Virus record (IMG/VR): IMGVR_UViG_3300025759_000549 | Span: 1 to 27,474 of that record | Strand: one strand, 5' to 3' | Length of the DNA stretch: 27,474 nucleotides | Source: a virus | Shown here: piece after piece, positions 1,015-27,447 of the stretch | How the letters are laid out: every line of letters starts with the position of its first letter | Position numbering within the stretch: the first letter of the stretch is position 1 | Made by a program: the position numbers and the translations under genes | The notes under the pieces: generated by a model | Seen by the model: only the letters and a program-made list of their open reading frames with translations | What the model was told of the DNA's origin: nothing | The model's database searches: none

Positions 1015-1025
1015 CTTTATTAGAC
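1015..1025 (+). promoter_or_regulatory. Putative archaeal promoter (TATA-like box) of the tube protein gene
   Basis: TTTATTAG (1016-1023) runs into GAC and ends 22 nt before the ATG at 1046. The same box-GAC arrangement and spacing occurs before several replication genes on the other strand. The distance fits a TATA box with a leaderless or nearly leaderless transcript. A 5-bp inverted repeat, AGACA/TGTCT (1022-1026 and 1036-1040), lies between box and start. Confidence 0.5.
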
Positions 1026-1045
1026 AAACATACAGTGTCTGATAT

Positions 1046-14354: not shown

Positions 14355-14368
14355 GACAAAACTTTGTC
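14355..14368. repeat. Short palindrome upstream of the ERCC4 nuclease gene
   Basis: GACAAA and TTTGTC are reverse complements around a 2-nt centre, placed between the putative promoter box and the ATG at 14347. It could be an operator, but a 6-bp arm in AT-rich DNA can arise by chance. Confidence 0.3.
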
Positions 14369-14369
14369 A

Positions 14370-14376
14370 TACTTAA
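14370..14376 (-). promoter_or_regulatory. Putative promoter box of the ERCC4 nuclease gene
   Basis: On the minus strand TTAAGTA is followed by TGAC and ends 22 nt before the ATG at 14347. It is a weaker match to the shared box but keeps the spacing. It overlaps the stop codon of the primase gene. Confidence 0.35.
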
Positions 14377-15365
14377 CTACAGTACCAGCAGTCTACTCCA
14401 TCACAGAGATTATGTTTGCGATACCAAAATGGTGAAGGGGCGTTTCTGTAGTTTTGCATACCAACCACATATTTTTTTGTGATATTAGGATGGTAGTCAA
14501 TCCAATCAAGAGCCTCAATAAAATCACAGATATTCTCTGCTATCTCATTCTTCTCTTCTTGCGATAAATCTCTTGGGTCAGCATACCACCTTAATTGTCT
14601 ACTCATCTCTTGAACCAAAGCGACACGGACATGATGGGGTGGGTTAGATACTCTGATGGCTCTATCAAGACAAGTAGGCAAAGCCACTTGTCCGTTATGG
14701 TTCCCCACTCTTACAGTTGCTCTCTGGGTGCTTGGTATTCTATCAACAAAAGGATTCTCATTATTCCACATTACTAAATCAAAACAAGAATCAGCGTTAA
14801 AATGACCTGTAAAGGGGTCTAAATGCTCTAAGGTAGGTTGGGGTCTATTTGGTATTTCGTAGCCCATAGGGTCGTTAGAGAAGCCTCTATGGTCAACTAC
14901 AACACACCAGCGACCCCTTGTAACATTGTAAGTATTAGAGACACGAGTAAGTTTTTCGGGATAACCTACCCCATCAAGCGAAGAAAGACCTTCTGCCATC
15001 TTACGCTCATATCTATCAAGATGCAAAGCCCACTGTCTACCTCTAACAGGTCTTTTGAAAAACTGATGAATATGAAAGCCTCTACCCGTTGCTACTAATC
15101 TAACTTCGCCTTCGAGTCTTGAAAGAAGAGTAGCAACATCGTTTTTTACTGTCTCCATGTCATAGTCTTCGTTAGTATCAAAATCCCACCACGCTCTATC
15201 AATAACTACGCTATCATAATCACCTAAATCATCGAAAGAATACAGACTCGTGTAGATATTACTCATACCATTTAGTTTAGATAGATAGGAAGTAAAGGTC
15301 TCGTAGTCGGGGCATTTCTGTCTCTTCAAACCTATCTGTCTGGGAAATGATAGTTTAACTCTCAT
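14373..15365 (-). CDS. Archaeo-eukaryotic primase with PriL-like C-terminal region
   Basis: This 330-aa protein likely makes primers for viral replication. The N-terminal half has AEP catalytic motifs: VVIDRAWWDFDTN (DxD-type metal ligands) and ATGRGFHIHQFF (the sGxGxH-type nucleotide motif). The C-terminal ~110 residues begin with PPHHVRVALVQEMSR and end in HNLCDGVDCWYC. That layout recalls the PriL C-terminal helical domain with its iron-sulfur cysteines, though only three closely spaced cysteines are visible. I chose the ATG at 15365 because TAGGGGGG lies just upstream, because the start at 15410 would run into the neighbouring 48-aa gene, and because a TATA-like box sits 23 nt before 15365. 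Single-chain PriS-PriL proteins are known in some archaeal mobile elements; the fusion here is inferred. Confidence 0.78.
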   Translation of the reverse strand: MRVKLSFPRQIGLKRQKCPDYETFTSYLSKLNGMSNIYTSLYSFDDLGDYDSVVIDRAWWDFDTNEDYDMETVKNDVATLLSRLEGEVRLVATGRGFHIHQFFKRPVRGRQWALHLDRYERKMAEGLSSLDGVGYPEKLTRVSNTYNVTRGRWCVVVDHRGFSNDPMGYEIPNRPQPTLEHLDPFTGHFNADSCFDLVMWNNENPFVDRIPSTQRATVRVGNHNGQVALPTCLDRAIRVSNPPHHVRVALVQEMSRQLRWYADPRDLSQEEKNEIAENICDFIEALDWIDYHPNITKKYVVGMQNYRNAPSPFWYRKHNLCDGVDCWYCS

Positions 15366-15381
15366 AATATTCCCCCCTACT

Positions 15382-15528
15382 TTAGTCTTTAATAATCTGC
15401 CTATGACCACACATCTTGCAGATATGATACCTTTCAGAAGCAGTATCTATATCTCCGGTAATCATCATTACGGGTGTAGCCCAATCTCCATCTGTTGCTA
15501 TAAAAGCATCACACATATCACATATCAT
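15382..15528 (-). CDS. Small zinc-ribbon-like protein (48 aa)
   Basis: This short ORF fills the gap between the Cas4-like nuclease and the primase. It starts at an ATG overlapping the nuclease stop (TAATG), with GGAGG 7 nt upstream, one of the clearest ribosome-binding sites in the window. It starts MICDMCDAF and ends with HICKMCGHRQIIKD, giving two CxxC pairs about 30 residues apart, a four-cysteine zinc site. No catalytic motif is visible. The coupling to the nuclease gene suggests a partner or regulator in DNA repair or replication, which is inference. Confidence 0.75.
   Translation of the reverse strand: MICDMCDAFIATDGDWATPVMMITGDIDTASERYHICKMCGHRQIIKD
15383..15396 (-). promoter_or_regulatory. 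Putative promoter box of the primase gene
   Basis: On the minus strand the box ATTATTAA (15389-15396) is followed by AGAC and ends 23 nt before the chosen ATG at 15365. The spacing equals that before the sliding clamp and 89-aa genes. A G-run (GGGGGG) lies closer to the start, so a ribosome-binding site may also be present. Confidence 0.45.
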
Positions 15529-16472
15529 TACAAATCCTCCCATAAATTTTCAAGCCCATTCTTTTCACTTTCGCAAGACATTGAGAAATCACACCACAGA
15601 GGACAAAAATAATCATTCCATTTCATATCCCACTGATGTTCCTTGATACCGCCTACGCATTTTTTAAGTGATTTGCTAAAAGAAGAGAGGCTTGCGCCGT
15701 GAACCTTCTCTACTACTAAGAAACCTTTAGCCCCTTCTGCTATTGCTACTTCTCTCTTGGAATTAGAATCGAGCCAACCCTTTTCGCAACAGAGAACCCT
15801 GTCTTCATCCCACTCATCCCAATCGTTTTTCCAATTGCATAATTCTGCTACAAACTTTGGATTGAATGCGTCTGGGGATAAATAGGCAAAGTGGGTTATA
15901 GGTCTGGTCTCCCCCATAAGTTTTAGCATATGAGTGTAGTAACACATCTCTTTGCGAGTCTTGTCAAACTTAGTTTTAGCCATATTACCTGTCTTCAATT
16001 CATATATACATAGACCGCCGTCTGGGTGTTCAAGAATACCATCAATTAGACCTACAAGCACTACTTCATTTTCAGCATCCCATACTACTCTCTTAACCTC
16101 ATATTCTACGGGTTTGAATTTTTCAAGACCCCATCTTTCTATCCGACATTCTTCTAAGAATGCGATTACCTCATTAGCAGGGTCTTCTCTGTCTTCGGGG
16201 ATTAGTGGGCCAAGAACAGACTGTCCTTCCCAATTATCATATAGAGTCTCTAAGTTAGTATGAACATACTTACCACGAGCCATAGCCTCTGTCTCCGGCA
16301 ATCTCCTGTCCTTGAGTTGGACTCTCGACCACCAATATTTACGAGGACAACCATCATAACCTATGAAAGAAGACTTCGACATTCTTAGGAGTTTGTCGGT
16401 GTCGTTAGGGTCATAACTGCTATTAGCATCTAACTCCTCAACAGACATTTCTGCTGGGTCTTTCATAATCAT
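15528..16472 (-). CDS. Cas4/RecB-like PD-(D/E)XK nuclease
   Basis: This ~314-aa protein is likely a DNA exonuclease used in replication, recombination or end processing. It shows SKSSFIGYDGCPRKYWW near the N-terminus, then RGKYVHTNLE (the GxxxH motif), VLVGLIDGILEH (Asp ligand), YELKTGNM (the ExK core of PD-(D/E)XK) and MCYYTHML, like the RecB QxxxY motif. One early Cys and a C-terminal FCPLWCDFSMSCE cluster give four cysteines, as in Cas4 and AddB-type nucleases that hold an iron-sulfur cluster. There is no helicase domain and no CRISPR context, so this is a viral repair or replication nuclease. The start overlaps the upstream zinc-ribbon gene by 4 nt. A second ATG at 16466 is better spaced from AGAGGA. 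Confidence 0.88.
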   Translation of the reverse strand: MIMKDPAEMSVEELDANSSYDPNDTDKLLRMSKSSFIGYDGCPRKYWWSRVQLKDRRLPETEAMARGKYVHTNLETLYDNWEGQSVLGPLIPEDREDPANEVIAFLEECRIERWGLEKFKPVEYEVKRVVWDAENEVVLVGLIDGILEHPDGGLCIYELKTGNMAKTKFDKTRKEMCYYTHMLKLMGETRPITHFAYLSPDAFNPKFVAELCNWKNDWDEWDEDRVLCCEKGWLDSNSKREVAIAEGAKGFLVVEKVHGASLSSFSKSLKKCVGGIKEHQWDMKWNDYFCPLWCDFSMSCESEKNGLENLWEDL

Positions 16473-16765
16473 TCCTCTTCTAAAGGTAGAGTAGTCTGCT
16501 CTGTCTCATCAAGAGAGGCTTCGCAGTAAGGACATATGTCTGGTCTTTCAATACCTTCAAATTGTGGTACTCTGATTGACCCAGAGCATGAAGGACATTT
16601 ATCTTCTGAAATCAAATCAAGATGTTGTAGTGTTCTTAGTATCAGAGTGTTATGCTTCTCCAATTCTTGCATAATCATATGTAGGAAGCCGTCAATCCTC
16701 CCAGCCATAATACTCATCTTTTCGTCAATCTGTTTTATCGTAGGTTTCTTACTTTCCCTGCCCAT
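16469..16765 (-). CDS. Helical protein with C-terminal zinc ribbon
   Basis: This 98-aa protein has a likely coiled-coil or long-helix N-terminal half (about residues 10-52, rich in Met, Leu and Glu). A zinc ribbon follows, with CPSC and CPYC pairs about 20 residues apart, and then an acidic tail (TTLPLEEE). No family is recognised. It is the first gene of a short unit with the Cas4-like nuclease, which overlaps it by 4 nt, and has a strong upstream promoter-like box. A small adaptor or transcription-factor-like role is possible but unproven. Confidence 0.7.
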   Translation of the reverse strand: MGRESKKPTIKQIDEKMSIMAGRIDGFLHMIMQELEKHNTLILRTLQHLDLISEDKCPSCSGSIRVPQFEGIERPDICPYCEASLDETEQTTLPLEEE

Positions 16766-16779
16766 ATTATCCCCACACT

Positions 16780-16795
16780 CCTATGACCTAATAAA
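16780..16795 (-). promoter_or_regulatory. Putative promoter / shared intergenic motif before the zinc-ribbon gene
   Basis: The minus strand reads TTTATTAGGTCATAGG, close to TTTAATAAGGACATAGG before the sliding clamp gene. The box ends 22 nt before the ATG at 16765. The GGWCATRGG part after the AT-rich box is conserved beyond what a plain TATA box needs. Confidence 0.6.
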
Positions 16796-16801
16796 CCTAT
16801 C

Positions 16802-19030
16802 TCACAACCAAACTACATCAGATAGACCATTTAGGGAATTTTGTAGAGGCATATAATCCCAATTCATAACTTCGTAATAGGGAATTACTTTTTCCAATAC
16901 AAATTTTCTTGCTAATTCTTTGAATCCAACTTTAGCAATACCTTGTATTTCAGATGGGTCATCAAAGGCTATGTATTCGCCATACTCGTCTAAAGTGCAG
17001 AGGAAGTAGTCATCTTTGCGATAACCTTTACCCAAATTATCATTAGCCCATTTAGCACCTGCTCTGGCTTCAGATAATACGGCATATTTATGTAAATCGT
17101 TGCTAAGTTTTGCTTTGATAGTTAAATCTGCAACGGGGATTTTCTCGGCAACAACATCTTCGATTAAATTAGCAAGAGAGTCGGTAGTTTCCCTCTCACT
17201 CACGCCTTTCAAGATATTATCAATGACTATCCCCATAGCGTTTTTCATAGCCTTTGGAAGCCTACTTTGCTTCATCTCAATACCTTTGACATACCTCTCT
17301 GCTTTATGATATTCCCCATCAGTCCAAGAAACAAGACCTGCGTAGCGGTTTTTAGCCATAACAAGGAATGATTCAGACCATTTTTCAAACTCTGTTACTA
17401 TAGGAGACATTCTTTCGTTGATAACCTTAAGAGCCTCTATACCCTTTTCTGGCGTAGGTACTTCGCACATAATAGAGTCGGTATGTCCGTATCTGACCTT
17501 GAAACCTAAATCCTCTGCGTGGTCTCTTAATTCACCCAAAGTCTTTCTCGAAGTGTATGTAATTGCGTCTGCGATTTTAGGGTGGTACATACCAAACTTA
17601 GCGTCACCGGCTACACCATACATAGAGGCAACCAAAGACTTAGTTGCGTATTGCAGAGCGTCATATCTCTTAGCCTCTTCTTCTGTCTTGGCTTGCGCCT
17701 TTCTCGCTTTGTATTCATTTCGCAAGTTAGTCATGTAGTCCATCTGTCTACCAAGAAGACCGCTTTTAGACATATCAAAACGAGTACCGTTGCCACAATC
17801 ACTACCTTTATCGCTTAGGGTAGTCCAGCAGATATTGTATTTTTTGACATTACTATGATACATAGCCTTAACATCAAAGATGCCTATGTTGTTATACACG
17901 CCAGCAACAGGAGTCATAATATCCGCACCTTCGTATTCTACTTTGTCAAATTGCGCTTTGCTTGGTATCTTCAAATCAAACTCTTCATCTCTCATACAGA
18001 GAATAGCAAACATCTTAGTGATGAATGGGGTTGAACGAATATCGCACTGAACGATATGCTGGAGGGCAGTAAAGTAGCCGAGAACATCTACCAAATCATT
18101 TAACTTTGGCAGTAACGCCACATCTTGTCTCGCATAATCAAGATAAGTACCAAAATCAGTATAATAAGTATCGTGTCCGTCTTTTAGAGGTACTTTTTCT
18201 TCGCCAAGACAGTGATTAGAAACTGCGTCAAGAGACATAGCCGGTAGTTGTCCGTTCTTCAAAGTCCATAACTTCTTGAAACCTACCATTAAATCTATGA
18301 CATTTCTGCCTACAATAGGTTGTTCCCAATCACCAAAACGCCACCTAACTCTGTTCATAGGGGATAGTATACCGGCTTTGATATTATTATGTCTCATACG
18401 AGTCAGAAGTTGTTTACAGTCAGCGTTAGTTACATTCCAACCTGTGATTATGTCTGGGTCATGAGCCTTCATAAGATTAGCAACATCTAACAACATCTCT
18501 CTTTCATTTGAGCAACATTTGAATTTCCTATCCCCTTTGTCGCAAGAGGTGTTTCCGTATGGATGGTCTTTGCAGGGTATACTATCGTAATACCCTGCCT
18601 CATAATCTGCATGTGTGAACCATACAAACTCACCTTTCTGCGAATCTCTTACCACTACTATTGTAATCTCCCCAGATTCTATTTTCCATTCCATATCAAT
18701 GTACCAGACTCTATGCTCATAATTATCAAAGAATTGATTGCTATCAGCAAGAACCTTGTTTTCCCATTTGATATTATTTTCCCATGTCTGCATACTATCT
18801 GCTATCTGTCTCATATCCTCCGTACCGTAAAAGGTCTGTTTGATTAATTTTTCTCCATAGAGACCTGTGTAACCACCTTCTTTCTTACACGCTATACCTA
18901 TATCCTTATCGCCTTCTTTAGTGTATAGGTAAGGCAACATATTCTTACCGAGAACGGCTTTTTTTCTATTGCCTTCTCCATCTCTGTAAAATACATTTAC
19001 GGAGTTTCCTCTACCTCTCTCTACTATCAT
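16802..19030 (-). CDS. polB: Family B DNA polymerase
   Basis: This 742-aa protein is the replicative polymerase candidate. The exonuclease domain shows WYIDMEW (ExoI DxE, ~residue 112), DPDIITGWNVTNAD (ExoII) and YLDYARQD (ExoIII YxxxD type). The polymerase domain has motif A DVKAMYHS (Asp ~386), motif B around TKSLVASMYGVAG (~460-475) and motif C VRYGHTDSIM (~513-520). Two family-typical residues differ: motif B has Ala where KxxxNSxYG has Asn, and motif C has His where YGDTDS has its first Asp. The second, catalytic Asp is kept, so activity is plausible. The length is slightly short for an archaeal PolB, with no intein seen. It is flanked by a 57-aa HTH gene and a zinc-ribbon gene, and has its own promoter-like box. 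Confidence 0.93.
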   Translation of the reverse strand: MIVERGRGNSVNVFYRDGEGNRKKAVLGKNMLPYLYTKEGDKDIGIACKKEGGYTGLYGEKLIKQTFYGTEDMRQIADSMQTWENNIKWENKVLADSNQFFDNYEHRVWYIDMEWKIESGEITIVVVRDSQKGEFVWFTHADYEAGYYDSIPCKDHPYGNTSCDKGDRKFKCCSNEREMLLDVANLMKAHDPDIITGWNVTNADCKQLLTRMRHNNIKAGILSPMNRVRWRFGDWEQPIVGRNVIDLMVGFKKLWTLKNGQLPAMSLDAVSNHCLGEEKVPLKDGHDTYYTDFGTYLDYARQDVALLPKLNDLVDVLGYFTALQHIVQCDIRSTPFITKMFAILCMRDEEFDLKIPSKAQFDKVEYEGADIMTPVAGVYNNIGIFDVKAMYHSNVKKYNICWTTLSDKGSDCGNGTRFDMSKSGLLGRQMDYMTNLRNEYKARKAQAKTEEEAKRYDALQYATKSLVASMYGVAGDAKFGMYHPKIADAITYTSRKTLGELRDHAEDLGFKVRYGHTDSIMCEVPTPEKGIEALKVINERMSPIVTEFEKWSESFLVMAKNRYAGLVSWTDGEYHKAERYVKGIEMKQSRLPKAMKNAMGIVIDNILKGVSERETTDSLANLIEDVVAEKIPVADLTIKAKLSNDLHKYAVLSEARAGAKWANDNLGKGYRKDDYFLCTLDEYGEYIAFDDPSEIQGIAKVGFKELARKFVLEKVIPYYEVMNWDYMPLQNSLNGLSDVVWL

Positions 19031-19042
19031 ATAGAGAGGTAC

Positions 19043-19216
19043 TTACCGAGTCAATATAAATCCTCTGATGCCTATACCATGAGACTCAAGGCAATCCATA
19101 ACAAACATAGGGGAAACTGAATACCTCTTTGCTATTAACGAAATAGTGCTTTTAACATACTGTTCTTCAAGCCATTTTTTATCTCTAAATCGTGTTAATT
19201 TATCATCTATTACCAT
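19043..19216 (-). CDS. Small helix-turn-helix protein (57 aa)
   Basis: This short ORF lies between the methyltransferase and the DNA polymerase. It starts at ATG (MVIDDKLTRF) and contains DKKWLEEQYV, then ISLIAKRYSVSPMFVMDCLE and SHGIGIRG. The pattern of a charged leading helix, a turn, a recognition helix and then HGI-x-IRG is typical of small HTH proteins in archaeal and phage genomes. It is in the same frame as the upstream methyltransferase, past its stop codon, so a readthrough product is conceivable. No good ribosome-binding site is visible, which fits a leaderless start. Its position just before polB suggests a local transcription regulator. Confidence 0.65.
   Translation of the reverse strand: MVIDDKLTRFRDKKWLEEQYVKSTISLIAKRYSVSPMFVMDCLESHGIGIRGFILTR
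19050..19060 (-). promoter_or_regulatory. Putative promoter of the DNA polymerase gene
   Basis: The minus strand reads TTTATATT followed by GAC, ending 22 nt before the ATG at 19030. It lies inside the last codons of the 57-aa HTH gene. TTTATATT is close to a textbook archaeal TATA box. Confidence 0.5.
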
Positions 19217-19231
19217 AGATTTTACGATGTT

Positions 19232-19250
19232 CTTTGTGACCTTTAATCAT
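19232..19250 (-). promoter_or_regulatory. Putative promoter of the 57-aa HTH gene
   Basis: The minus strand reads ATTAAAGGTCACAAAG (within 19232-19250), similar to TTATTAGGTCATAGG before the zinc-ribbon gene, and lies about 26 nt before the ATG at 19216. It overlaps the methyltransferase stop codon, as other copies overlap stop codons. Confidence 0.35.
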
Positions 19251-20044
19251 ACCCATTCCAGCGCATTTGTGTTTGGAATATCTTTAAGTTTCGCTCTTAT
19301 TCGCTCGCAAGATTCGGCATATAACTCTACCATAGTAGAGTTTCTTCCTAATAATTCGCAAGCGACTGCCGTTGTTCCAGACCCACCAAAGGGGTCTAAG
19401 ACCCAATCATCCTCATCGGTGCTTGCTAAAATACATTTAATCGGTAATTCAAGTGGGAAGGGTGCTTCGTGTCCGTTGTTAGCAGGGGTCATATCCCAGA
19501 CGGTGAAAAGATTATTCGCATTATAGTGATAGTCTGGGGATTTTGTTAGCATGAATATCTGTTCGTGTTTAGGTATAGGTCTTTTGATATAAGCCTCCGG
19601 TTGAGGATATGATTTGCTTTTATTCCATATTATCTCACTTCGCAGAATCCATCCGTCAGCCTGTAGAGCCAGAGCCAACCTCCAACCTACACCTATTAGA
19701 TTCTTTTTAGCAAGACCCCCAACATTCCTCGCACCCCATTTATTCTTAGAATCTTTGATACCACCTTCTTTGTAATCAGAACCAGCCCCGCCAGAACCAT
19801 TGTATGAATCCCCCACATTCAACCATAAAGTACCATCGTCAGTTAGATGTTCCCGTACTTTGCGACAAACTTCAACCATACTCCCTATATATTCATCGAG
19901 AGTTTGTCCTTTACCTATCTCATCAGAGTCATCACCATAGGTTCTCATCCCGTAGTATGGGGGAGAAGTTATACACGACCTAAATTTTCTATCTCCCAAA
20001 TCTGCTTTGAGGAAATCGGAACATATTATGTCGTGTTGCATCAT
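19247..20044 (-). CDS. DNA methyltransferase (N4-cytosine or N6-adenine, beta-type)
   Basis: This 265-aa enzyme likely transfers methyl groups from S-adenosylmethionine to an exocyclic amino group in DNA. Motif IV is TSPPYYGMR (~residues 27-35) and the SAM-binding FxGxG motif is LDPFGGSGTTAVAC near the C-terminus. Catalytic motif before SAM motif is the beta-class order. SPPY is commonest among N4-cytosine enzymes but does not settle the base. GVGWRLALALQADGWILRSEIIWNK is typical of phage-encoded members. No restriction endonuclease is nearby, so it is an orphan, probably protecting viral DNA. It overlaps the upstream winged-helix gene by 4 nt and follows the sliding clamp in the same unit. 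Confidence 0.9.
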   Translation of the reverse strand: MMQHDIICSDFLKADLGDRKFRSCITSPPYYGMRTYGDDSDEIGKGQTLDEYIGSMVEVCRKVREHLTDDGTLWLNVGDSYNGSGGAGSDYKEGGIKDSKNKWGARNVGGLAKKNLIGVGWRLALALQADGWILRSEIIWNKSKSYPQPEAYIKRPIPKHEQIFMLTKSPDYHYNANNLFTVWDMTPANNGHEAPFPLELPIKCILASTDEDDWVLDPFGGSGTTAVACELLGRNSTMVELYAESCERIRAKLKDIPNTNALEWV

Positions 20045-20406
20045 TTAATCCTCTTATACTCATAGATATTTGAATTGATTGGTATTCTCTGTATGTAGCC
20101 CCATTTTGCGAGAAGCATTAAGATTCTTGACACCATACGAGTATGTATTATCGCATTAGGTCTACAATATTCGTTAGCAAGATTAGCAATATATTCTGCC
20201 GTAAGAATCTGTCCTACTTCCATATCTCTAAGAACCGCATACATAACTACTATTTTTCTGTGTAATTTAGTGATAGACATAACAGAACCCATATGCTTCA
20301 TAGTCCATTCTATTTCAGAAGCAGGGAGTTTTATCCCCCTACTTGCTATATTCTGAATCCTATGAAGAGGTTGTTCTTCTGCCCAATCTGCTAAATTTAT
20401 GCTCAT
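20041..20406 (-). CDS. Winged-helix-like protein
   Basis: This 121-aa protein has a mainly helical N-terminal part. In the second half, QILTAEYIANLANEYCR and the later HTRMVSRILMLLAKWGYIQRI look like a winged helix, with a recognition helix followed by a wing strand. It has no enzyme motifs. It lies between the sliding clamp and the methyltransferase with ATGA overlaps on both sides, so translation is probably coupled. It is most likely a DNA-binding regulator or accessory factor; the exact family is not recognised. Confidence 0.6.
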   Translation of the reverse strand: MSINLADWAEEQPLHRIQNIASRGIKLPASEIEWTMKHMGSVMSITKLHRKIVVMYAVLRDMEVGQILTAEYIANLANEYCRPNAIIHTRMVSRILMLLAKWGYIQRIPINSNIYEYKRIK

Positions 20407-21215
20407 ACTACTCCTCTTTGAAATATAACATTGTTTTCCATGTCTACTAAGACTATAGAATAACCTTGCGATTCTTCTGTGAAATCTAAGAAGTAAAGGT
20501 TTACCAGACCGTCAGTAAGACATTTCTCTAAACCGCCTTCAAACTCAAACTCAAAAGGTGCTACATCATCTTCTGTGCTTGCTAAACAAGTCTCGGTTTT
20601 ACCCAATAAAATATTACCAGACTCAATATATAGACGCTTCATAGAATCCCACTTTAGCAAACACCTGTTTACTTTTTGCCCGTTTACATTACCAGCATCA
20701 ATAGCATTTTTAAATTCAGAACCCATTATCTGCAACTCAATAAAAGGCTCTCTAATACTGCCGTCTCGCATTTTGTAGGAACCTGTAAGTGGGTTGATAG
20801 AGGCTATTCTACCTTTTGATTCTGCATACCATTCACTAACTGTTTTCTTTGTATGGGGGAATGCTAAAGCCCTTGAATCAGCCGATAAGGTAGTCTGTCT
20901 GCCACTCGATTTAATAACTATCTTGTCTTCTTTAGATTCTAAAGTGATAACTCCACGATGAGGTTTTAAGACACCCAACATCTTCTCAATGTCCGGTATA
21001 ACATATTCTTGTTCGTCTACTTCGTTTGCTAAACATGAAAAAGTAGCAACACTTGATATTCCATCCCTAACTATGTTAGTAGTGGATAATAGATTATCAT
21101 CAGACCCACTAATCACACACCCCTTTACTTGAGGTATGGGTTTTCCATTGATATTACATACTCTCTGTGTTCTACTCAACAACTTCTCTAATTCTGCCTT
21201 ACTTACCTTAAGCAT
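20403..21215 (-). CDS. Sliding clamp (PCNA-like)
   Basis: This 270-aa protein is likely the processivity ring for the DNA polymerase. Its length is normal for PCNA (about 245-270 aa). It shows the repeating strand pattern of clamp domains, with a VIPDIEKMLGVLK segment followed by GVITLESKEDKIVIKSSG (the common PCNA-type pair of strands) and a C-terminal half ending NLYFLDFTEESQGYSIVLVDMENNVIF. Context is strong: PolB, RFC-like ATPase and primase lie in the same block. The sequence is divergent, and the call leans on size, strand pattern and neighbours. It opens a unit with the winged-helix and methyltransferase genes. Confidence 0.68.
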   Translation of the reverse strand: MLKVSKAELEKLLSRTQRVCNINGKPIPQVKGCVISGSDDNLLSTTNIVRDGISSVATFSCLANEVDEQEYVIPDIEKMLGVLKPHRGVITLESKEDKIVIKSSGRQTTLSADSRALAFPHTKKTVSEWYAESKGRIASINPLTGSYKMRDGSIREPFIELQIMGSEFKNAIDAGNVNGQKVNRCLLKWDSMKRLYIESGNILLGKTETCLASTEDDVAPFEFEFEGGLEKCLTDGLVNLYFLDFTEESQGYSIVLVDMENNVIFQRGVV

Positions 21216-21229
21216 ATACTACACACCTT

Positions 21230-21246
21230 CCTATGTCCTTATTAAA
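21230..21246 (-). promoter_or_regulatory. Putative promoter / shared intergenic motif before the sliding clamp
   Basis: The minus strand reads TTTAATAAGGACATAGG. The AT-rich octamer ends 23 nt before the ATG at 21215 and overlaps the stop codon of the upstream small gene. It shares TTAATAAGGACAT exactly with the copies at 23660-23676 and 25621-25637. Confidence 0.6.
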
Positions 21247-21463
21247 CCACCGTGATATAAGGATGCTTTTCTGCCATTCTTGCACACATCTTACACGGCT
21301 CTCGCTCTTTCAAATCACCGTTTTTATCAGTAGGTTGTTCTGATGTGTAGATACCAAAAGTGTCTACACCTCTACACAGTAAATACGATTTACCCGTCAC
21401 CCCTATGTCAACTGCGTAATGCCACTGTCTTTTGCGAGACGGGAATACCTGCCTAACCTTCAT
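21242..21463 (-). CDS. Small putative zinc-binding protein (73 aa)
   Basis: I chose the ATG at 21463 (MKVRQVF), which overlaps the end of the Sak4-like gene and has GGAG 8 nt upstream; an in-frame GTG lies at 21472. The layout is WHYAVDIG, then SYLLCRG, a ~25-residue spacer and CKMCARM. This His plus Cys and CxxC arrangement is seen in many short phage proteins that probably bind zinc. The 89-aa protein at 25337-25606 has the same plan. It is the last gene of the RPA-Sak4 unit. Function unknown. Confidence 0.6.
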   Translation of the reverse strand: MKVRQVFPSRKRQWHYAVDIGVTGKSYLLCRGVDTFGIYTSEQPTDKNGDLKEREPCKMCARMAEKHPYITVV

Positions 21464-22400
21464 TGTCAGCACTCCATTTCAAGAACGGCAGACCGAACCA
21501 TTCAACATTACCATCAGATACTCGCAAAACAGTATGCGTAGTGCCTAAATGTTCTTGGTTCCACCCTTTCATTTCTTCTATGGTTGCTCGAATTTCCCAC
21601 TCGTTTTCATTCATCTGTGGGTCAGACTTAACGCCAGCCGCAACATCACCTTTCTTGGTGTATCTTGCTAAGAAAATCTGTTGCGAGAACAATCTCATTG
21701 TTCCCTTTTCCCAATCCGGTTGTTCGCCTACTTTCATTAGACCTTTCTGCCCGTTTCCTATGTCTGCGAACTGCTTAACATCTTTTAGATGGTAAGTAAA
21801 GAATACTGCGTCAACGGGTAGTTGATGCGCTCTATTCATTACATCACGGAATAATTGGTTGCGAATGCGCCATTCTGCTTGATTGAATTTATCTCCATCT
21901 TCAACATTGATAGGATTCTTAGACCTATTCATCAGAACATCAGTCATAGCCAATTCGCACCACTTCAAGAAAGTAGAGCCTCCATCAATGATGACCGCAC
22001 CTATCTCTCCTTTCCTCGCTTCCTCTCCGATTAACTTAATGAAGTAACCCATCTTGTCAATCAGAGCAGTCCAATTAGTAGAATTATCTTCGTTGAAGAT
22101 AAAAGAATCGGTTTCGTCAAACAAAGGAACAACCTTTATATTTTTGTCATGTGGATAGTTACATGTAACTGTCTGAATCGCAGAATTATCAACATCTATG
22201 ATGATAATCTCTTTGTCCGTTCTCCCTCTGGCAATATCAACCGCCAGACCCGTCTTAGCACAGTTTTCCTTTGCGACAAGAGCCATTCTGATAGGATTAT
22301 CAGAGACTCTTGGTCTTGAGAACAATTCTCTGAAATGCTCTATACCATACTTTGCGCCTTCTTGCTCTTGTTTACTCTCCTCTTTTGTTCCCCAACTCAT
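21453..22400 (-). CDS. RecA-like ATPase, Sak4-type recombinase candidate
   Basis: This 315-aa protein looks like phage single-strand annealing/recombination ATPases of the Sak4 group, short RecA-core proteins. The P-loop region reads ALVAKENCAKTGLAVDIA: the KT of Walker A is kept but the usual glycines are replaced (AKENCAKT rather than GxxxxGKT). Walker B is clear (IGAVIIDGGSTFLKW), and AVFFTYHLKDV matches the strand that precedes the sensor loop. It follows the RPA/SSB-like gene by 4 nt, a common pairing of recombinase and ssDNA-binding protein, and is preceded by GGGAG. It may be a recombination mediator or a nucleotide-binding protein with weak hydrolysis. Confidence 0.72.
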   Translation of the reverse strand: MSWGTKEESKQEQEGAKYGIEHFRELFSRPRVSDNPIRMALVAKENCAKTGLAVDIARGRTDKEIIIIDVDNSAIQTVTCNYPHDKNIKVVPLFDETDSFIFNEDNSTNWTALIDKMGYFIKLIGEEARKGEIGAVIIDGGSTFLKWCELAMTDVLMNRSKNPINVEDGDKFNQAEWRIRNQLFRDVMNRAHQLPVDAVFFTYHLKDVKQFADIGNGQKGLMKVGEQPDWEKGTMRLFSQQIFLARYTKKGDVAAGVKSDPQMNENEWEIRATIEEMKGWNQEHLGTTHTVLRVSDGNVEWFGLPFLKWSADNEG

Positions 22401-22404
22401 TGTA

Positions 22405-23628
22405 TCACTCCCAATCGTCTATTTCAGTCTGGGAAGAAGAGTCAGTGTCCGTAAGGACACCGACTTCTTCAACACAGAACCAACCTGTCGTTGCTAATTT
22501 TCCGTCTCCGTCTCGATTCACATAAGGAGAACCGACTACGGCTACAACTGAACCAACACCGAATGAAACTTTAGAATCCTCTTCTTGCGATACATACAAG
22601 TCGAGAGGGGCTGATAGAGAGGTCAAATCTAAATCAGATAGAGTTAGAATATAACCACCACTTTCTCTTGGGTCAATGTGTGCGACTTCCATCACTATAC
22701 ATACAAGAGCATCCCACTTCTCTTTATCAGAGAGAGTATTTACATGGTCTTCGATAAAGTCAAGACCGTCAAGCATAGTAATGTGGTCTGGGATTAGACC
22801 AGAACCATCAGACATAAGAGGGGCTTTAGGGAAAATACTCGCAAGGTTTGAATCAAGAGTATATTGCGAAACTCCAGCCTTTGTATACGCTACGCCATTC
22901 TTAGATAGATTGGCAGGTATTTGTAGAGGAGAGAAGGTAGGATAATTTACCTTTGCTAAATCTCCTCTGAATTTCATAGGAATCAGTTTCGGCGCATCCT
23001 CACTACCCTGTTCTCTACCTAAGAAAAGGCAGGTTCTTTCTAAATCAGAAGTCGCTCTTGCCTTTCCATATGCGTAGTTAGGAGAACCCGAAGGATATGT
23101 AGGCGAGGTTTTGTTCTCGATACATACGAAGTAACCTGTGCCGTCTCCAATATCTGTCGCTTGTTTAGGCAACTTGTCACCGGACATTTCTCCCAATTCA
23201 ACTGCAAAAGGAGTCTTGTTTGTAAGTGTAGGATTGTGAACAATCCTATATCCGCCTTGCGAATCATCATGTAGATACAGAGTGATAAGACCTTGTGCTA
23301 CAAGGTTCTTTCTGCCTTCTTCGTCTAATGTCTTCAACATATTCTGATACTTTGTGTAAAACACTTTACCCCAATCTTTGTATCTTGGACTACTCAAGAA
23401 CATACCTTCTAACATAGTGCATCCACTACGGGATAGTCTTGCTTTCTCTGCTCTCATTTCAGCCGCTGCCATTCGCAAGGTCTTGTTTTCAACCTCTGCT
23501 TCTGATACACCCGCCGCTACGAGTGACACGGCATGTGTGTCCTTAGCCTTCTTGTGTCGTGCGAGTAATTCATTCAATGAACAACCCACATTCTTTGCTA
23601 CTCTTTCATACATCTCGCTACTTATCAT
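22405..23628 (-). CDS. RPA/SSB-like single-stranded DNA-binding protein
   Basis: This 407-aa protein has a helical N-terminus (~residues 1-110), a central beta-rich region (~130-250) that could be an OB fold, and a C-terminal beta segment (DLYVSQEEDSKVSFGVGSVV, then GWFCVEEVGV) also OB-like. It ends in an acidic tail, TDTDSSSQTEIDDWE. Acidic tips ending in an aromatic/acidic patch are typical of proteins such as bacterial SSB and phage ssDNA-binding proteins that recruit partners. It is followed directly by the Sak4-like ATPase. AGGTGA 6 nt before the ATG at 23628 fixes the start. The role is inferred from fold pattern, tail and context; no zinc motif was seen. Confidence 0.55.
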   Translation of the reverse strand: MISSEMYERVAKNVGCSLNELLARHKKAKDTHAVSLVAAGVSEAEVENKTLRMAAAEMRAEKARLSRSGCTMLEGMFLSSPRYKDWGKVFYTKYQNMLKTLDEEGRKNLVAQGLITLYLHDDSQGGYRIVHNPTLTNKTPFAVELGEMSGDKLPKQATDIGDGTGYFVCIENKTSPTYPSGSPNYAYGKARATSDLERTCLFLGREQGSEDAPKLIPMKFRGDLAKVNYPTFSPLQIPANLSKNGVAYTKAGVSQYTLDSNLASIFPKAPLMSDGSGLIPDHITMLDGLDFIEDHVNTLSDKEKWDALVCIVMEVAHIDPRESGGYILTLSDLDLTSLSAPLDLYVSQEEDSKVSFGVGSVVAVVGSPYVNRDGDGKLATTGWFCVEEVGVLTDTDSSSQTEIDDWE

Positions 23629-23659
23629 CAGTTTTCACCTGCTTCATATTTCCGTTATA

Positions 23660-23676
23660 CCCATGTCCTTATTAAT
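23660..23676 (-). promoter_or_regulatory. Putative promoter / shared intergenic motif before the ssDNA-binding gene
   Basis: The minus strand reads ATTAATAAGGACATGGG and overlaps the stop codon of the RFC-like gene. Here the box is 40 nt from the ATG at 23628, so the transcript would have a short leader with the AGGTGA ribosome-binding site. A spurious ATG with a 9-codon ORF sits 21 nt after the box. Confidence 0.55.
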
Positions 23677-24565
23677 CCCTCGATGCCAACATACGACAGA
23701 AATCCCAACGGACTATTGTCTCATCACAACCTTGCAGTATGTCTCTTTCGCTGATAATAGAGGACTCTATAACTCGCATCTTTGCTTCTGCTGATGCGTC
23801 TGAATTGACGGCATAATCGAAGACCTTTCGGATAACTACCCTCATAGGCATATCCTTAGTCAGACCTACCGCCATGTCTACACTTCTTTCCTTTGCACAT
23901 ATGCGAAGGAAAGTCTTAGGATTAAAATCTGATACATCAAGACTTAGAACAAAGGAGTCTCTATCTTGGTGTGTTACTGTATTGTATGCTTGAAGACAAT
24001 TAATAGCATTTCTCAAATCGCCTCTGTGAGCGTGTGCTATTGCTCTGATATGTTCATCGGGAACATAACAGTTTTCTTTGTTGGATATGTAGATTAGTTT
24101 CTCGATAATAGCATCTATCTCTATCTCTTTGAAATGACGAAGTTGACACCTCGACTGTAGGAAAGGAGTGACTTTGCTAATATCATTACAAGTCAGAACA
24201 AAATAACAAGTTGCGTTTTCGATAACACCTTTAAGTGCGTCTTGAGCCTGTAAAGTAAGTCTATCTGCTTCATCTAATAAGATGATAGTCTCCCACATAC
24301 CACTCTGCGACATAGGGATGATTTCTTCTTCGATAAACTCTATACCTCTGGTTCTTTTGCTACTCGCATTGTAGATATGCAAATTGAAATTAAGATGCCT
24401 TGCTAATAGATATGCTATTGAGGTCTTGCCTGTTCCAGCACCGACACTATGGAGGAGGAAATGATTCATATTTTCTGATGTAATATTCATCATCTCTGAT
24501 ACTATTATATCTTGACCTACGACTTCTTCAAATGTCTTAGGTCTATACTTCTCGCACCAAATCAT
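23672..24565 (-). CDS. Clamp loader ATPase, RFC small subunit-like
   Basis: This 297-aa AAA+ ATPase likely loads the sliding clamp at primer ends. The N-terminus is WCEKYRPKTFEEVVGQD, the classic RFC box. Walker A is GAGTGKTSIAYLLAR, Walker B is IILLDEADRLT (DEAD form), and QSRCQLRHF carries the SRC motif with its arginine finger. The C-terminal third is helical and shorter than in cellular RFC small subunits (~320 aa). No RFC large subunit is visible in the window, so it may form a homomeric or host-assisted loader. The start overlaps the 60-aa zinc gene by 4 nt, with GGGAG 8 nt upstream. Confidence 0.93.
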   Translation of the reverse strand: MIWCEKYRPKTFEEVVGQDIIVSEMMNITSENMNHFLLHSVGAGTGKTSIAYLLARHLNFNLHIYNASSKRTRGIEFIEEEIIPMSQSGMWETIILLDEADRLTLQAQDALKGVIENATCYFVLTCNDISKVTPFLQSRCQLRHFKEIEIDAIIEKLIYISNKENCYVPDEHIRAIAHAHRGDLRNAINCLQAYNTVTHQDRDSFVLSLDVSDFNPKTFLRICAKERSVDMAVGLTKDMPMRVVIRKVFDYAVNSDASAEAKMRVIESSIISERDILQGCDETIVRWDFCRMLASRD

Positions 24566-24744
24566 CTCATCATCTCCCTCATATCTCTCATGTGTAGGGC
24601 ATACATATCTTCATCATAAATCTGTTGGCACTCAAGACACAAAGTCATAGAAGTCTTTGCTATACTATCTTTACATATTTCGCAGAGAGGTATTCCTTCT
24701 TTTTTGAGAATCCTCTTTACAAGAAATCTACTTACTCTCTTCAT
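24562..24744 (-). CDS. Small zinc-binding protein (60 aa)
   Basis: The protein starts with a basic helix (MKRVSRFLVKRILKKEG), then IPLCEIC and, about 15 residues on, LCLECQQ, two CxxC pairs for one zinc ion. It ends with Met- and acid-rich residues. It is sandwiched between the dNMP kinase and the RFC-like gene with ATGA overlaps on both sides, and GGGGTG lies 7 nt before the start. No family is recognised; a role as a replication accessory factor is only contextual. Confidence 0.65.
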   Translation of the reverse strand: MKRVSRFLVKRILKKEGIPLCEICKDSIAKTSMTLCLECQQIYDEDMYALHMRDMREMMR

Positions 24745-25340
24745 TCCTCTTCACCCCATGTCTTTAGGAAGTCGTCAACTAAAGGAACGAGTCTTCTATA
24801 CATACCGAGAGGAGACATACCCGTAGTATCAAAGAATATGCTCTGATGGGCATATTGCGTTTCCGATAATACTTCATCAACGGGTTCCAACTGCTCGCTT
24901 ATATGTGCAAAGCCTGTAGCACCACGATTAATTAGAGTCTGTTGGTTTGCGTCTAAGCGTATTACCATCCCACCCATGTTAAGTATATGCAAGGCTTCGT
25001 TGGTATGTCTAACATCATCAATAATAGCAACGCCGTAACCTTGTTTGTCAGCATATTTCTGTAGTCTCTCAACCCAATAGTCGGGGTCAACTAATGCCCT
25101 ACGACCTTGACCCCATGCTTGAAGAAGAGGTCTTGTGCGAGTCTTATCTTGTGCTTCTAATAAATCCCATAAGTAACGAGCCTCACGCTTCTGTTGCTTA
25201 TGGAAAAATGCCTGTGCTACTTCTTCTCTAAGACTTTCTGCGAAAGATAGTATGGGTAAGTCGAATTTCTGTGCAAGCAGACCAGCAAGAGTAGATTTAC
25301 CGGATTTCATATTTCCGCATATACCTATGTATAATGTCAT
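24741..25340 (-). CDS. Deoxynucleoside monophosphate kinase
   Basis: This enzyme likely phosphorylates dNMPs to dNDPs to raise the nucleotide supply for viral replication. The P-loop is GNMKSGKSTLAGLLA near the N-terminus. A DVRHTNEA segment (residues ~110-120) matches the DVRxxNE motif of phage dNMP kinases, and TRTRPLLQAWGQGRR fits the lid and substrate region. Its length (~199 aa) is normal. I chose the ATG at 25340, which overlaps the upstream stop as ATGA and has AGGGGGTG 5 nt before it; an in-frame GTG lies at 25346. It is grouped with the RFC-like gene. Confidence 0.85.
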   Translation of the reverse strand: MTLYIGICGNMKSGKSTLAGLLAQKFDLPILSFAESLREEVAQAFFHKQQKREARYLWDLLEAQDKTRTRPLLQAWGQGRRALVDPDYWVERLQKYADKQGYGVAIIDDVRHTNEALHILNMGGMVIRLDANQQTLINRGATGFAHISEQLEPVDEVLSETQYAHQSIFFDTTGMSPLGMYRRLVPLVDDFLKTWGEEE

Positions 25341-25606
25341 AACCACACCCCCTTGCGGGAGTGAGAGACGGAACGCTTTGCGCTCTGCTTCACCGCCTCT
25401 TCACCCCCTGCGGAGGTATCTTTCCCATATCCCTGTATACCTTCTGGGAAGCAGTCGGTACAGAGAGGAAGTGAAAGTGCTTGTTTGTCTGTAATCTCGC
25501 CCATATCGTGTATAGGCGCACCGCAGTAATACTTACCTCCTTTGGAAGTAAGGTGCGATTCGTTGTTAGTCCTGTGGAGTCTCCATTCCGCTTTGATTCT
25601 CACCAT
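25337..25606 (-). CDS. Small putative zinc-binding protein (89 aa)
   Basis: Layout: HRTNNESHL, then KYYCGAP, a ~20-residue spacer, and LCTDCFPEG, followed by a basic Ser-rich tail. The His, Cys and CxxC plan is the same as in the 73-aa protein at 21242-21463 and in small proteins common in phages. No enzyme motif was seen. It is the first gene of the unit with dNMP kinase, a zinc protein and the RFC-like ATPase, and starts 23 nt after a strong promoter-like box. Function unknown. Confidence 0.6.
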   Translation of the reverse strand: MVRIKAEWRLHRTNNESHLTSKGGKYYCGAPIHDMGEITDKQALSLPLCTDCFPEGIQGYGKDTSAGGEEAVKQSAKRSVSHSRKGVWL

Positions 25607-25620
25607 ATTAGTGAGTAAAC

Positions 25621-25637
25621 CCCATGTCCTTATTAAT
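25621..25637 (-). promoter_or_regulatory. Putative promoter / shared intergenic motif before the dNMP kinase unit
   Basis: The minus strand reads ATTAATAAGGACATGGG, identical over 17 nt to the copy at 23660-23676. The box ends 23 nt before the ATG at 25606 and overlaps the stop codon of the upstream winged-helix gene. Confidence 0.6.
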
Positions 25638-26046
25638 CAGACGGTCTTCTCTGACATATCAGACATTCAGACCAATCCTCTTGTATCAGCCTCATTTGTT
25701 TACAACCTAAACATCTAATGGCATTCTTTTTTTCTGCAACAGTCATACTCGAATAAGGTCTTGTAAACACTAAGTCTTCTTCGTCTTTGATAATCGAATC
25801 ATCAATCGCATAGACAGAATTGATAGTCATTGTACCATCCCCAACATCAACCTTATCTGTTCCTGTCTGTATTATCTGTATATTTTTAGCAAGCATAGCA
25901 GAGAGGCTTGCGTCAGAAGGCATTACTCTAAAATTACCTTCTTCTAAAAGAATACTCGCAACGGCAGAACGGGTCATTTCACCCCTCTCGAAGAGGATTT
26001 CTGCAATCCTTCTTCTTATTCTGGCGTTTGCGTTATTTTTAGCCAC
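25633..26046 (-). CDS. Winged-helix protein with C-terminal zinc ribbon
   Basis: This 137-aa protein begins with GTG, with AAGGA 6 nt upstream. Residues ~8-60 look like a winged helix (IRRRIAEILFERGEMTRSAV followed by SDASLSAMLAKNIQ). The C-terminus holds CLGCKQM and ECLICQR, two CxxC pairs forming a zinc ribbon. This build is shared with archaeal transcription factors and small DNA-binding adaptors. It is probably a single-gene unit with its own weak promoter-like box. The target is unknown; a viral transcription regulator is the simplest reading. Confidence 0.7.
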   Translation of the reverse strand: MAKNNANARIRRRIAEILFERGEMTRSAVASILLEEGNFRVMPSDASLSAMLAKNIQIIQTGTDKVDVGDGTMTINSVYAIDDSIIKDEEDLVFTRPYSSMTVAEKKNAIRCLGCKQMRLIQEDWSECLICQRRPSD

Positions 26047-26067
26047 ATACTGTCCTTGACTTTGCGA

Positions 26068-26075
26068 TATTTAAC
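26068..26075 (-). promoter_or_regulatory. Putative promoter box of the winged-helix/zinc-ribbon gene
   Basis: The minus strand reads GTTAAATA, ending 21 nt before the GTG at 26046. It lacks the GGAC extension directly after the box (an AAGGAC occurs later, near the ribosome-binding site), so it is a weaker match. Confidence 0.3.
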
Positions 26076-26263: not shown

Positions 26264-26913
26264 GAAACAACATTCTCCTTAGTCTTCTTCATTTTCTTAG
26301 GTAACTTATCTCTGGGGATTTGCGCTCTAATAAGATTAGCAACTTCACCGTCTTTTATTATCATATCTCTATACTTATCGCTTTCTCTGAACATATGCAA
26401 TTCGCAATCCTCTACTTTCTTTTTCTTTTTGGGGAATGCTGGTCTGTGTTTTACAGGACTTATACCAAAACAAATAGTGGCTTGTTGCATATCCTCTGAA
26501 CACCAACGGAAAGACTTTGCTAAAAGTCTGTATATCTCAATGTCTCTGACATTCTCTCGTAGAAAGGAAAGCATAAGAGGAACAGGAACCCTCTGTGTAT
26601 TATTCCAGACCCTATTCCTATCTTGCCAACGAAGTGTCGCTTGAATCGCAGATATGTAATCTCTATTGCCTTTCTTTAAACTTCTATCGTAGATAACTCT
26701 ATCATCGTCAATCTTAGGTGCTTTATCGCAGACTATTATCATTCTGTATTTTATGTAATCGAGCCAACCTACACAATCCTCTGCGTCTGGTCTTTTGATG
26801 TGACAGATAACCGTAGTATCAATAGAGGGAGATGTGAAAAAACCATCACCCTCTATGTATTCGCCTACACGGTAAGGTTCAGCATCAAGCGTAAAAATGA
26901 GCATCCCCATCAT
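26254..26913 (-). CDS. Unknown protein in the replication module; possible clamp-loader partner
   Basis: About 219 aa. The N-terminal ~90 residues look alpha/beta, with hydrophobic strands (MLIFTLDAEPY, TTVICHIKR, YRMIIVCDKAPK). A helical region follows, with LRWQDRNRVW and PVPLMLSFLRENVRDIEIYRLLAKSF, then a KKKKK patch and a basic tail. No Walker or metal motif is visible. The half-Rossmann then helical layout recalls inactive clamp-loader subunits such as delta or HolA-like proteins, and no second RFC gene was found, but this is speculation. AGGTGA lies just before the ATGs at 26913 and 26910; GTG at 26919 is another possible start. It overlaps both neighbours. Confidence 0.6.
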   Translation of the reverse strand: MMGMLIFTLDAEPYRVGEYIEGDGFFTSPSIDTTVICHIKRPDAEDCVGWLDYIKYRMIIVCDKAPKIDDDRVIYDRSLKKGNRDYISAIQATLRWQDRNRVWNNTQRVPVPLMLSFLRENVRDIEIYRLLAKSFRWCSEDMQQATICFGISPVKHRPAFPKKKKKVEDCELHMFRESDKYRDMIIKDGEVANLIRAQIPRDKLPKKMKKTKENVVSWL

Positions 26914-27151
26914 ACTCACCTATCAACTTTGTAAATTCTTTAACACCGTTAGAATTTATGCGACTGATTAGAAGTCCTCTACTTGCCATAATTCGCAGAT
27001 GCCTTGATACAGAATAGACAGTTATACTACACGACCTCTGCGGTAGCGTCTCGATAGCCTTTGGCAGAAGTTGGTCTGCCGTAAACCAATCGGATAACTC
27101 CCACTCTTGGACTGCGGCTTCGACTGCTGAACCACGATACTTCTTACTCAT
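26885..27151 (-). CDS. Winged-helix protein (88 aa)
   Basis: I chose the ATG at 27151 (MSKKYRG), which overlaps the upstream stop as ATGA and has GGAGG 7 nt before it. The longer start at 27166 would lie inside the previous gene. WFTADQLLPKAIETLPQRS, then YSVSRHLRIMASRGLLISRI, and NSNGVKEFTKL as wing, read as a winged helix of the archaeal type. No other domain is present. It is probably a transcription regulator of the virus or host. The family is not pinned down. Confidence 0.65.
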   Translation of the reverse strand: MSKKYRGSAVEAAVQEWELSDWFTADQLLPKAIETLPQRSCSITVYSVSRHLRIMASRGLLISRINSNGVKEFTKLIGEYDGDAHFYA

Positions 27152-27447
27152 TGTGGAACCTCCCATTCTGTGTCTACTTCACGGTGGACTATGTCTAATA
27201 AATCTAACATCTCCATACACATAATATCTTCATCTGCATGTCTCTCCAATAATTCTCTGAACCTATCGAAGGCTAATGCTTTGCGCTCATACTCACGAAG
27301 AACATCTATTGTTTCTTCGTAAGTGTAAGGCTCTCGTTCATCTAACTCGACATTACCCCAACATATCTGCGATACTTCTTCACATAATTCCTCTACTTGT
27401 GGTGTATACCACTTCTCATCAAATCTAATCATACCTATTCTACTCAT
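27148..27447 (-). CDS. Helical acidic protein of unknown function (99 aa)
   Basis: It starts at ATG with a GGGGGTATATTGA stretch directly upstream; a second ATG at 27432 (MIRFDEKWY) follows a GGT. The protein is strongly acidic and mostly helical (YTYEETIDVLREYERKALAFDRFRELLERHADEDI), with a few cysteines but no CxxC pair. I do not recognise it. It is the first complete gene of a unit with the winged-helix, ~219-aa and membrane genes, whose promoter probably lies beyond or at the right edge of the window. Confidence 0.6.
   Translation of the reverse strand: MSRIGMIRFDEKWYTPQVEELCEEVSQICWGNVELDEREPYTYEETIDVLREYERKALAFDRFRELLERHADEDIMCMEMLDLLDIVHREVDTEWEVPQ

Follow-up and report, generated by a model that had tools for sequence, protein, structure and literature searches.

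The stretch of DNA analysed here, termed the window, comprises positions 1 to 27,474 of the virus record IMGVR_UViG_3300025759_000549 and matches, at 99.93% identity, a portion of a virus contig of 54,234 bases (IMGVR_UViG_3300006916_000059, hereafter G016). The minus strand of the window carries the replication genes, among them those for PolB, an RFC-type clamp loader, an ERCC4 nuclease, a PDDEXK nuclease and a DNA methylase. Large, presumed structural genes lie on the opposite strand. Upstream of replication-strand genes a short box recurs that combines a TATA element with conserved flanks, above all a downstream GACAT (Table 1). These repeats almost certainly serve as core promoters for the transcription units of replication, which are presumably early, because the TATA element sits where the TATA box of a leaderless archaeal mRNA is expected.

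A preliminary description of this DNA had named four copies of an AT-rich octamer followed by GGWCATRGG. All four are present, on the minus strand and thus on the coding strand of the replication genes, and coincide precisely with the starts of presumed early operons. The sequence TTWATWAGGWCATRGG has four exact matches, as opposed to a mean of 0.005 and a maximum of one in 200 dinucleotide shuffles, and allowing one or two mismatches adds none. GGWCATRGG by itself matches exactly five times, always on the minus strand and never on the plus strand, and the reversed control pattern is not found; the fifth match, at 15400-15408, arises by coincidence from the coding sequence that ends a 53-aa gene. 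When the minus strand of the window is aligned at every start codon, the octamer occupies positions -30 to -23 and is followed by GTCATAGGA, GACTCGGTA, GACATAGGA or GACATGGGG at -22 to -14. GG or GA is conserved directly 5' of the TT, and the downstream element has the consensus GACAT, which some copies replace by GTCAT. For the clade as a whole the consensus reads G(G/A)TTTATA-nn-GACAT-nG, and its register is fixed, with TATA at -30 to -23 and GACAT at about -22 to -18.

The spacing given in the preliminary description is also confirmed: the octamer ends 22 nt upstream of the start codon, the exception being the gene for a 407-aa protein. Weaker forms do precede the ERCC4 nuclease, primase, polB, 57-aa and 137-aa genes in the register of the strong copies. 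For the primase candidate (14373-15365) this requires translation from the ATG at 15365, which is probably the true start rather than the upstream GTG at 15410. The weak primase box is conserved in relatives, and the protein end encoded there, RQIIKD, may account for part of this conservation. Relatives likewise have boxes at or near the polB boundary. As had been remarked for many copies, the boxes tend to overlap the stop codon of the preceding gene (eight of nine in the window). Starts that overlap or closely trail another gene generally have no box.

Table 1. Boxes, a late-module promoter-like site and genes for winged-helix proteins in the window
Feature	Sequence	Position	Strand	Score (bits)	Context
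Box	GGTTTATTAGGTCATAGG	16780..16797	-	18.6	32 nt before ATG of 98-aa zinc protein gene (16469-16765); exact copy
Box	GTTTAATAAGGACATAGG	21230..21247	-	15.9	32 nt from ATG of 270-aa gene (20403-21215); overlaps stop of 21242-21472
Box	GATTAATAAGGACATGGG	23660..23677	-	20.0	49 nt before ATG of 407-aa gene (22405-23628); overlaps RFC gene stop
Box	GATTAATAAGGACATGGG	25621..25638	-	21.4	32 nt before ATG of 89-aa gene (25337-25606); overlaps stop of 25633-26046
Box	GATTTATATTGACTCGGT	19045..19062	-	16.1	32 nt before ATG of polB (16802-19030); inside end of 57-aa ORF
Weak box	GATTATTAAAGACTAAAG	15380..15397	-	10.5	Before primase candidate (ATG 15365); inside coding end of 15382-15543
Weak box	TAGTTAAGTATGACAAAG	14362..14379	-	Under matrix cut-off	Before ERCC4 nuclease (ATG 14347); common register
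Weak box	GATTAAAGGTCACAAAGA	19231..19248	-		Before 57-aa gene (19043-19216); common register
Weak box	GTAGTTAAATATCGCAAA	26061..26078	-		Before 137-aa gene (25633-26046); common register
Late-module promoter-like site	TTTATTAGACAAACATACAG	1016..1035	+		Before structural gene 1046-2098; TATA in register, without the GGACAT element
93-aa winged-helix protein		26885..27166	-		Predicted Fur-type fold; candidate box reader, a lead only
137-aa winged-helix protein		25633..26046	-		C-terminal four-cysteine motif; weak fold similarity to TFIIE-alpha

The box was recovered independently of the window species. Relatives were viral contigs at 51-63% RFC identity, and a wider set comprised records with a 315-aa protein, among the matches listed. 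An expectation-maximization search (zero or one occurrence per sequence) over the upstream regions of other virus species (196 regions, none from the window species) returned GGTTTATAwkrACwT at 47 sites, peaking 32-33 nt before starts; a de novo set from the window species only (25 regions) was too small to converge. A weight matrix retrained on ten other-species contigs was used to score the two strands of G016. The six top-ranking sites, at 21.4 to 15.9 bits and headed by the box at 25621..25638, each belong to the promoter of a replication-strand gene, with a spacing of 32-33 nt in five cases and of 49 nt in the sixth; one of them lies outside the window, before a 268-aa gene (G016 10859). 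The seventh site (15.7 bits) stands at the beginning of a small predicted ORF with an internal ATG 45 nt away, and the next, the first clearly intragenic match, reaches only 11.9 bits. The motif is therefore not as common within genes as between them; equal frequency would have spoken against the promoter reading. Shuffled genomes attained a maximum of 14.1 bits on average, so that the scores alone support only the top few sites and placement is decisive: by our own arithmetic about 2.4% of G016 positions lie this close upstream of a start. Across 11 viruses, 50 matches exceed 12 bits, and their distances to the start cluster at 32 nt (n=19) and 33 nt (n=8), followed by 34 nt (n=3) and 31 nt (n=1). 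A held-out group of relatives has the same box, with six matches at 32 nt.

The restriction of the motif to the replication module is borne out by strand counts. In five long records, boxes above 12 bits precede 23 replication-strand genes and none of the 87 structural-strand genes. The structural promoter before window position 1046 has TTTATTAG in the same register, with the 3' flank ACAAACATA in the window and TTATAATATTC in relatives; the orthologous boundary in two relatives, G011 and G012, reads TTTATTAGTTATAATATTCATG. This one orthologous late boundary suggests that late promoters with a TATA element and without GACAT may form a separate class. A second repeated box, ATTAATAGGAGAAGCCCCCTATAAGAGGCTGAACAGGAGTGA, is found with shorter forms in the part of G016 outside the window, upstream of the left-arm genes at 3725, 7253 and 8884, and the copy before 7253 can be traced at the orthologous starts of G010-G013.

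In archaeal core promoters an AT-rich TATA element lies some 26-30 nt ahead of the transcription start, a purine-rich B recognition element (described in PMC11065993) adjoins it on the upstream side, and leaderless mRNAs are common, though not universal. The conserved GG or GA of the box would lie in the place of the B recognition element. The TATA register places the predicted transcription start at or next to the start codon. A Shine-Dalgarno (SD)-like tetramer precedes 12 of the 31 genes with a box at 29-36 nt, compared with 192 of 266 closely spaced unboxed genes. In nearly all relatives the box of the 407-aa gene lies 42-59 nt upstream, and the longer leader often contains an SD-like sequence; in the window it carries AGGTGA before the ATG. 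That the gene with the long leader is often SD-like and the boxed genes with short spacing less so is an internal consistency which supports the promoter reading. As had been proposed from the spacing, the boxed transcription units are very probably leaderless for the most part, judging from the distance peak at 32-33 nt and the smaller share of SD-like sequences.

A comparison with Poseidoniales promoters had been proposed as a check. Eleven Poseidoniales genomes, located via the published MGII 16S probe sequence (PMC5471323, PMC5671491), provided 655 gene upstream regions. These have a TTSAWA/TTNATA element at -30, and the TATA half of the viral matrix peaks in them at 30-32 nt (8, 19 and 14 regions versus about 3 elsewhere). 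The downstream half shows no peak in these regions, whereas the viral regions show a peak at 32-33 nt for either half, and the full-box score is reached by none of the 655. The TATA part is thus ordinary, and the sampled Poseidoniales do not share the GGWCAT extension. Beside the canonical proteins, three Poseidoniales genomes (G001-G003) encode a divergent second TFB of 350-358 aa and have a weak additional TBP-like ORF; in a fourth (G004) the weak TBP-like ORF accompanies a single TFB. Scanning genome contigs by RFC alignment yielded no relatives. The helicase-like protein of the virus has none in 390 Thermoplasmatota genomes, so that no provirus or co-binned contig proves the host. The GenBank phage collection contains no relatives of a 301-aa late-strand protein or of the helicase-like protein, and matches PolB only at about 22-24% identity.

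Between virus lineages the GGWCAT part changes while the TATA element stays constant. Four sister lineages (L269, L278, L272 and L274; 52-56% identity in the 315-aa protein) keep TTTATAT, with CC on its 5' side and a CC-rich 3' side, and the box form of more distant viruses is CC-TTTATAT-nCC. The G-type box is retained in L258 and in L259, L261 and L262. Viruses encoding a Poseidoniales-like TFB have other boxes, for instance TTAAATACCTTTGACACCCCATAGAAT and variants of it in L202, upstream of 866, 4305 and 12736. A constant TATA element with flanks that change as a set over several promoters per genome is what would be expected from a change of reader or of host.

Taken as a whole, we regard it as likely that the boxes are core promoters equipped with a lineage-specific downstream identity element. 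On this reading the TATA element would be bound by the TBP and TFB of the host, which would recruit the host RNA polymerase. The downstream element, for which we favour, somewhat more guardedly, a lineage-specific regulatory role over that of a host core element, would give the viral replication promoters a common identity that is read by a trans-acting factor of the virus lineage. This factor could be a virus-encoded DNA-binding protein or a recruited variant of a host TFB or activator, and may set promoter strength or timing relative to late promoters with TATA only. That it is encoded by the virus has, in our estimate, an even chance. Any function beyond core-promoter identity is our inference. 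The preliminary description, which had rightly recognised a promoter with conservation beyond the TATA-like box, had offered a virus-specific regulator or an unusual arrangement of B recognition element (BRE) and initiator. Specificity for the virus lineage has held up by comparison. The BRE/initiator wording has not: the element lies immediately 3' of TATA (-22 to -15), in the place of BREd or of the GTC motif of SIRV viruses, and is neither a BREu nor an initiator.

Several points weigh against this interpretation. The weak forms before the ERCC4, 57-aa and 137-aa genes score poorly, and those of polB and the primase fall within ORFs and are partly subject to protein constraint. Against all unboxed genes the SD contrast is only nominal (p = 0.04). 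Transcript starts are predictions from sequence, and the labels early and late derive from strand and gene content only. Poseidoniales are a plausible host but unproven, and an unsampled archaeon with GACAT as its own core element would fit too. The non-palindromic GACAT equally fits a core-element reading.

The last two points lead to the alternative that the true host uses the whole box, including GACAT, as its ordinary core promoter, with a BREd-like contact to the host TFB, and that lineages differ with their hosts. The hosts of these viruses are unproven. The fixed register and the one-directional element adjoining TATA would agree with this, as would the second divergent TFB and the weak second TBP-like protein in Poseidoniales, owing to which host promoter classes may exist. 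We nevertheless consider it unlikely, as the 11 Poseidoniales genomes have TATA in nearly the same register without the downstream element and as TATA stands without GACAT in the late promoter of this virus, so that the host machinery apparently has no need of it. Similarly improbable is an operator, at which a virus-encoded repressor covering the 3' flank of TATA would shut off the early genes late in infection. The clade conserves a number of small proteins that resemble winged helices, and the regulators of archaeal viruses known so far are mostly repressors (PMC5569661). On the other hand, the element is not palindromic, unlike many sites of dimeric regulators, and is rigidly phased to TATA in all box-bearing lineages; a role for any of these proteins is putative.

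The overlap of nearly all window boxes with stop codons bears the possibility that they are signals tied to gene ends, acting in transcription termination, translation re-initiation, packaging or replication, and not promoters. This is highly improbable. It is from the next start, and not from the stop, that the boxes keep a fixed distance; one window box lies clear of the stop, some starts in the clade are boxed hundreds of bases past the previous called gene, and the box has no T-run or hairpin. Chance or coding constraint, which the position of the polB and primase boxes within ORF ends might suggest, has a vanishingly small probability and is already refuted for the strong copies by the shuffling result, by out-of-sample recovery and by the fact that the GACAT of all four falls beyond the stop codon.

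The boxes have counterparts in other archaeal viruses. In SIRV1 and SIRV2, TATA is followed in most promoters by a GTC motif (Kessler et al. 2004, as described in PMC5569661). The systems agree in that an archaea-type virus joins a host-type TATA to a short virus-specific downstream element in most promoters, here those of the replication strand. With GACAT-nG, and GG/GA on the 5' side of TATA, the present element exceeds the SIRV motif in length; it is confined to the replication strand, found in a different virus group and replaced, together with the other flank, in sister lineages. As its consensus is GACAT, not GTC, it is not filed as the same element, although it would work in a similar way. 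An element of the SIRV kind would be expected to be absent from host promoters; the one described here is absent from the 655 regions of Poseidoniales, a plausible but unproven host. Halovirus HF2 has intergenic class I and II repeats with TATA, one class in the replication (early-middle) module and the other in the structural module, for which sequence-specific viral factors have been proposed (PMC8707807). Repeated intergenic TATA promoters are common to both viruses. However, HF2 class I repeats measure 56-58 bp and include a conserved start-site motif, whereas the present box has about 18 bp and ends about 14 nt before the start codon, positions -13 to -1 share no sequence in the window, and most mRNAs are predicted to be leaderless. 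The SIRV2 early-gene regulatory sequence associated with Aca8 has a constant TATA core with flanks that vary by virus and are tied to virus-encoded regulators (PMC11065993). Core and flanks behave alike here, but anti-defence genes are marked there and replication genes here. Our literature searches found no description of a magrovirus promoter. The kind of element, a virus-specific TATA flank, is known; its occurrence in another virus group with another sequence, the restriction to the replication strand and the traceable turnover are new. The eukaryotic BREd lies directly 3' of TATA and is contacted by TFIIB. It resembles the present element in position and not in sequence, and a TFB contact here is putative.

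A virus-encoded TBP or TFB was rejected, as no TBP or TFIIB domain (PF00382 for TFB) was found in seven viral records, some of them fragments; this would set the group apart from magrovirus-type viruses with their own TFB. The 137-aa protein (weak TFIIE-alpha similarity, E = 5.8e-3, TM 0.36) occurs with and without the box and is ruled out as the cause of the box difference. The 57-aa protein is likewise found with and without it, the 207-aa protein in two boxless lineages and the 121-aa protein also in boxless lineages. For the 207-aa protein (L116:13513-14136; 66-77% identity across the clade, no family match) a Cys/His motif and a possible helix-turn-helix were noted. A 432-aa protein of the same record (L116:11680-12978) has no Pfam or PHROGs match, may be MCM/AAA-like by motif reading and, at 70-83% identity across the clade, is conserved far above RFC. 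The 270-aa protein has no Pfam match; PCNA-like is a candidate label guessed from gene context.

A candidate reader is the 93-aa protein, for which a Fur-type winged helix is predicted (mean pLDDT 78, best PDB match E = 1.2e-3). It is present in the box-bearing lineages whose records cover the region and absent from long records of boxless L278, L269 and L264, and, as far as its record covers the region, from L265. On a tree of RFC and the 315-aa protein, its deep nodes taken as drawn, the lineages that lack it occupy three separate branches. Since a 199-aa kinase gene follows the box equally well, the co-occurrence is weak and no more than a lead. It is thus a very doubtful proposal that the 93-aa protein reads GACAT beside TATA together with host TBP and TFB, acting as a virus-specific co-factor of initiation at every replication promoter, and that protein and element are gained and lost together while TATA stays fixed.

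For a virus group known here only from metagenomes, the box predicts operon starts and start codons and separates replication from structural units, which aids annotation. The turnover of flanks around a constant TATA makes promoter evolution in archaeal viruses testable from sequence and points to a small candidate protein. It appears that an entire virus lineage has a gene-control code of its own in common, and if the 93-aa protein were indeed its reader, uncultivated marine archaeal viruses would possess a swappable promoter code of their own.

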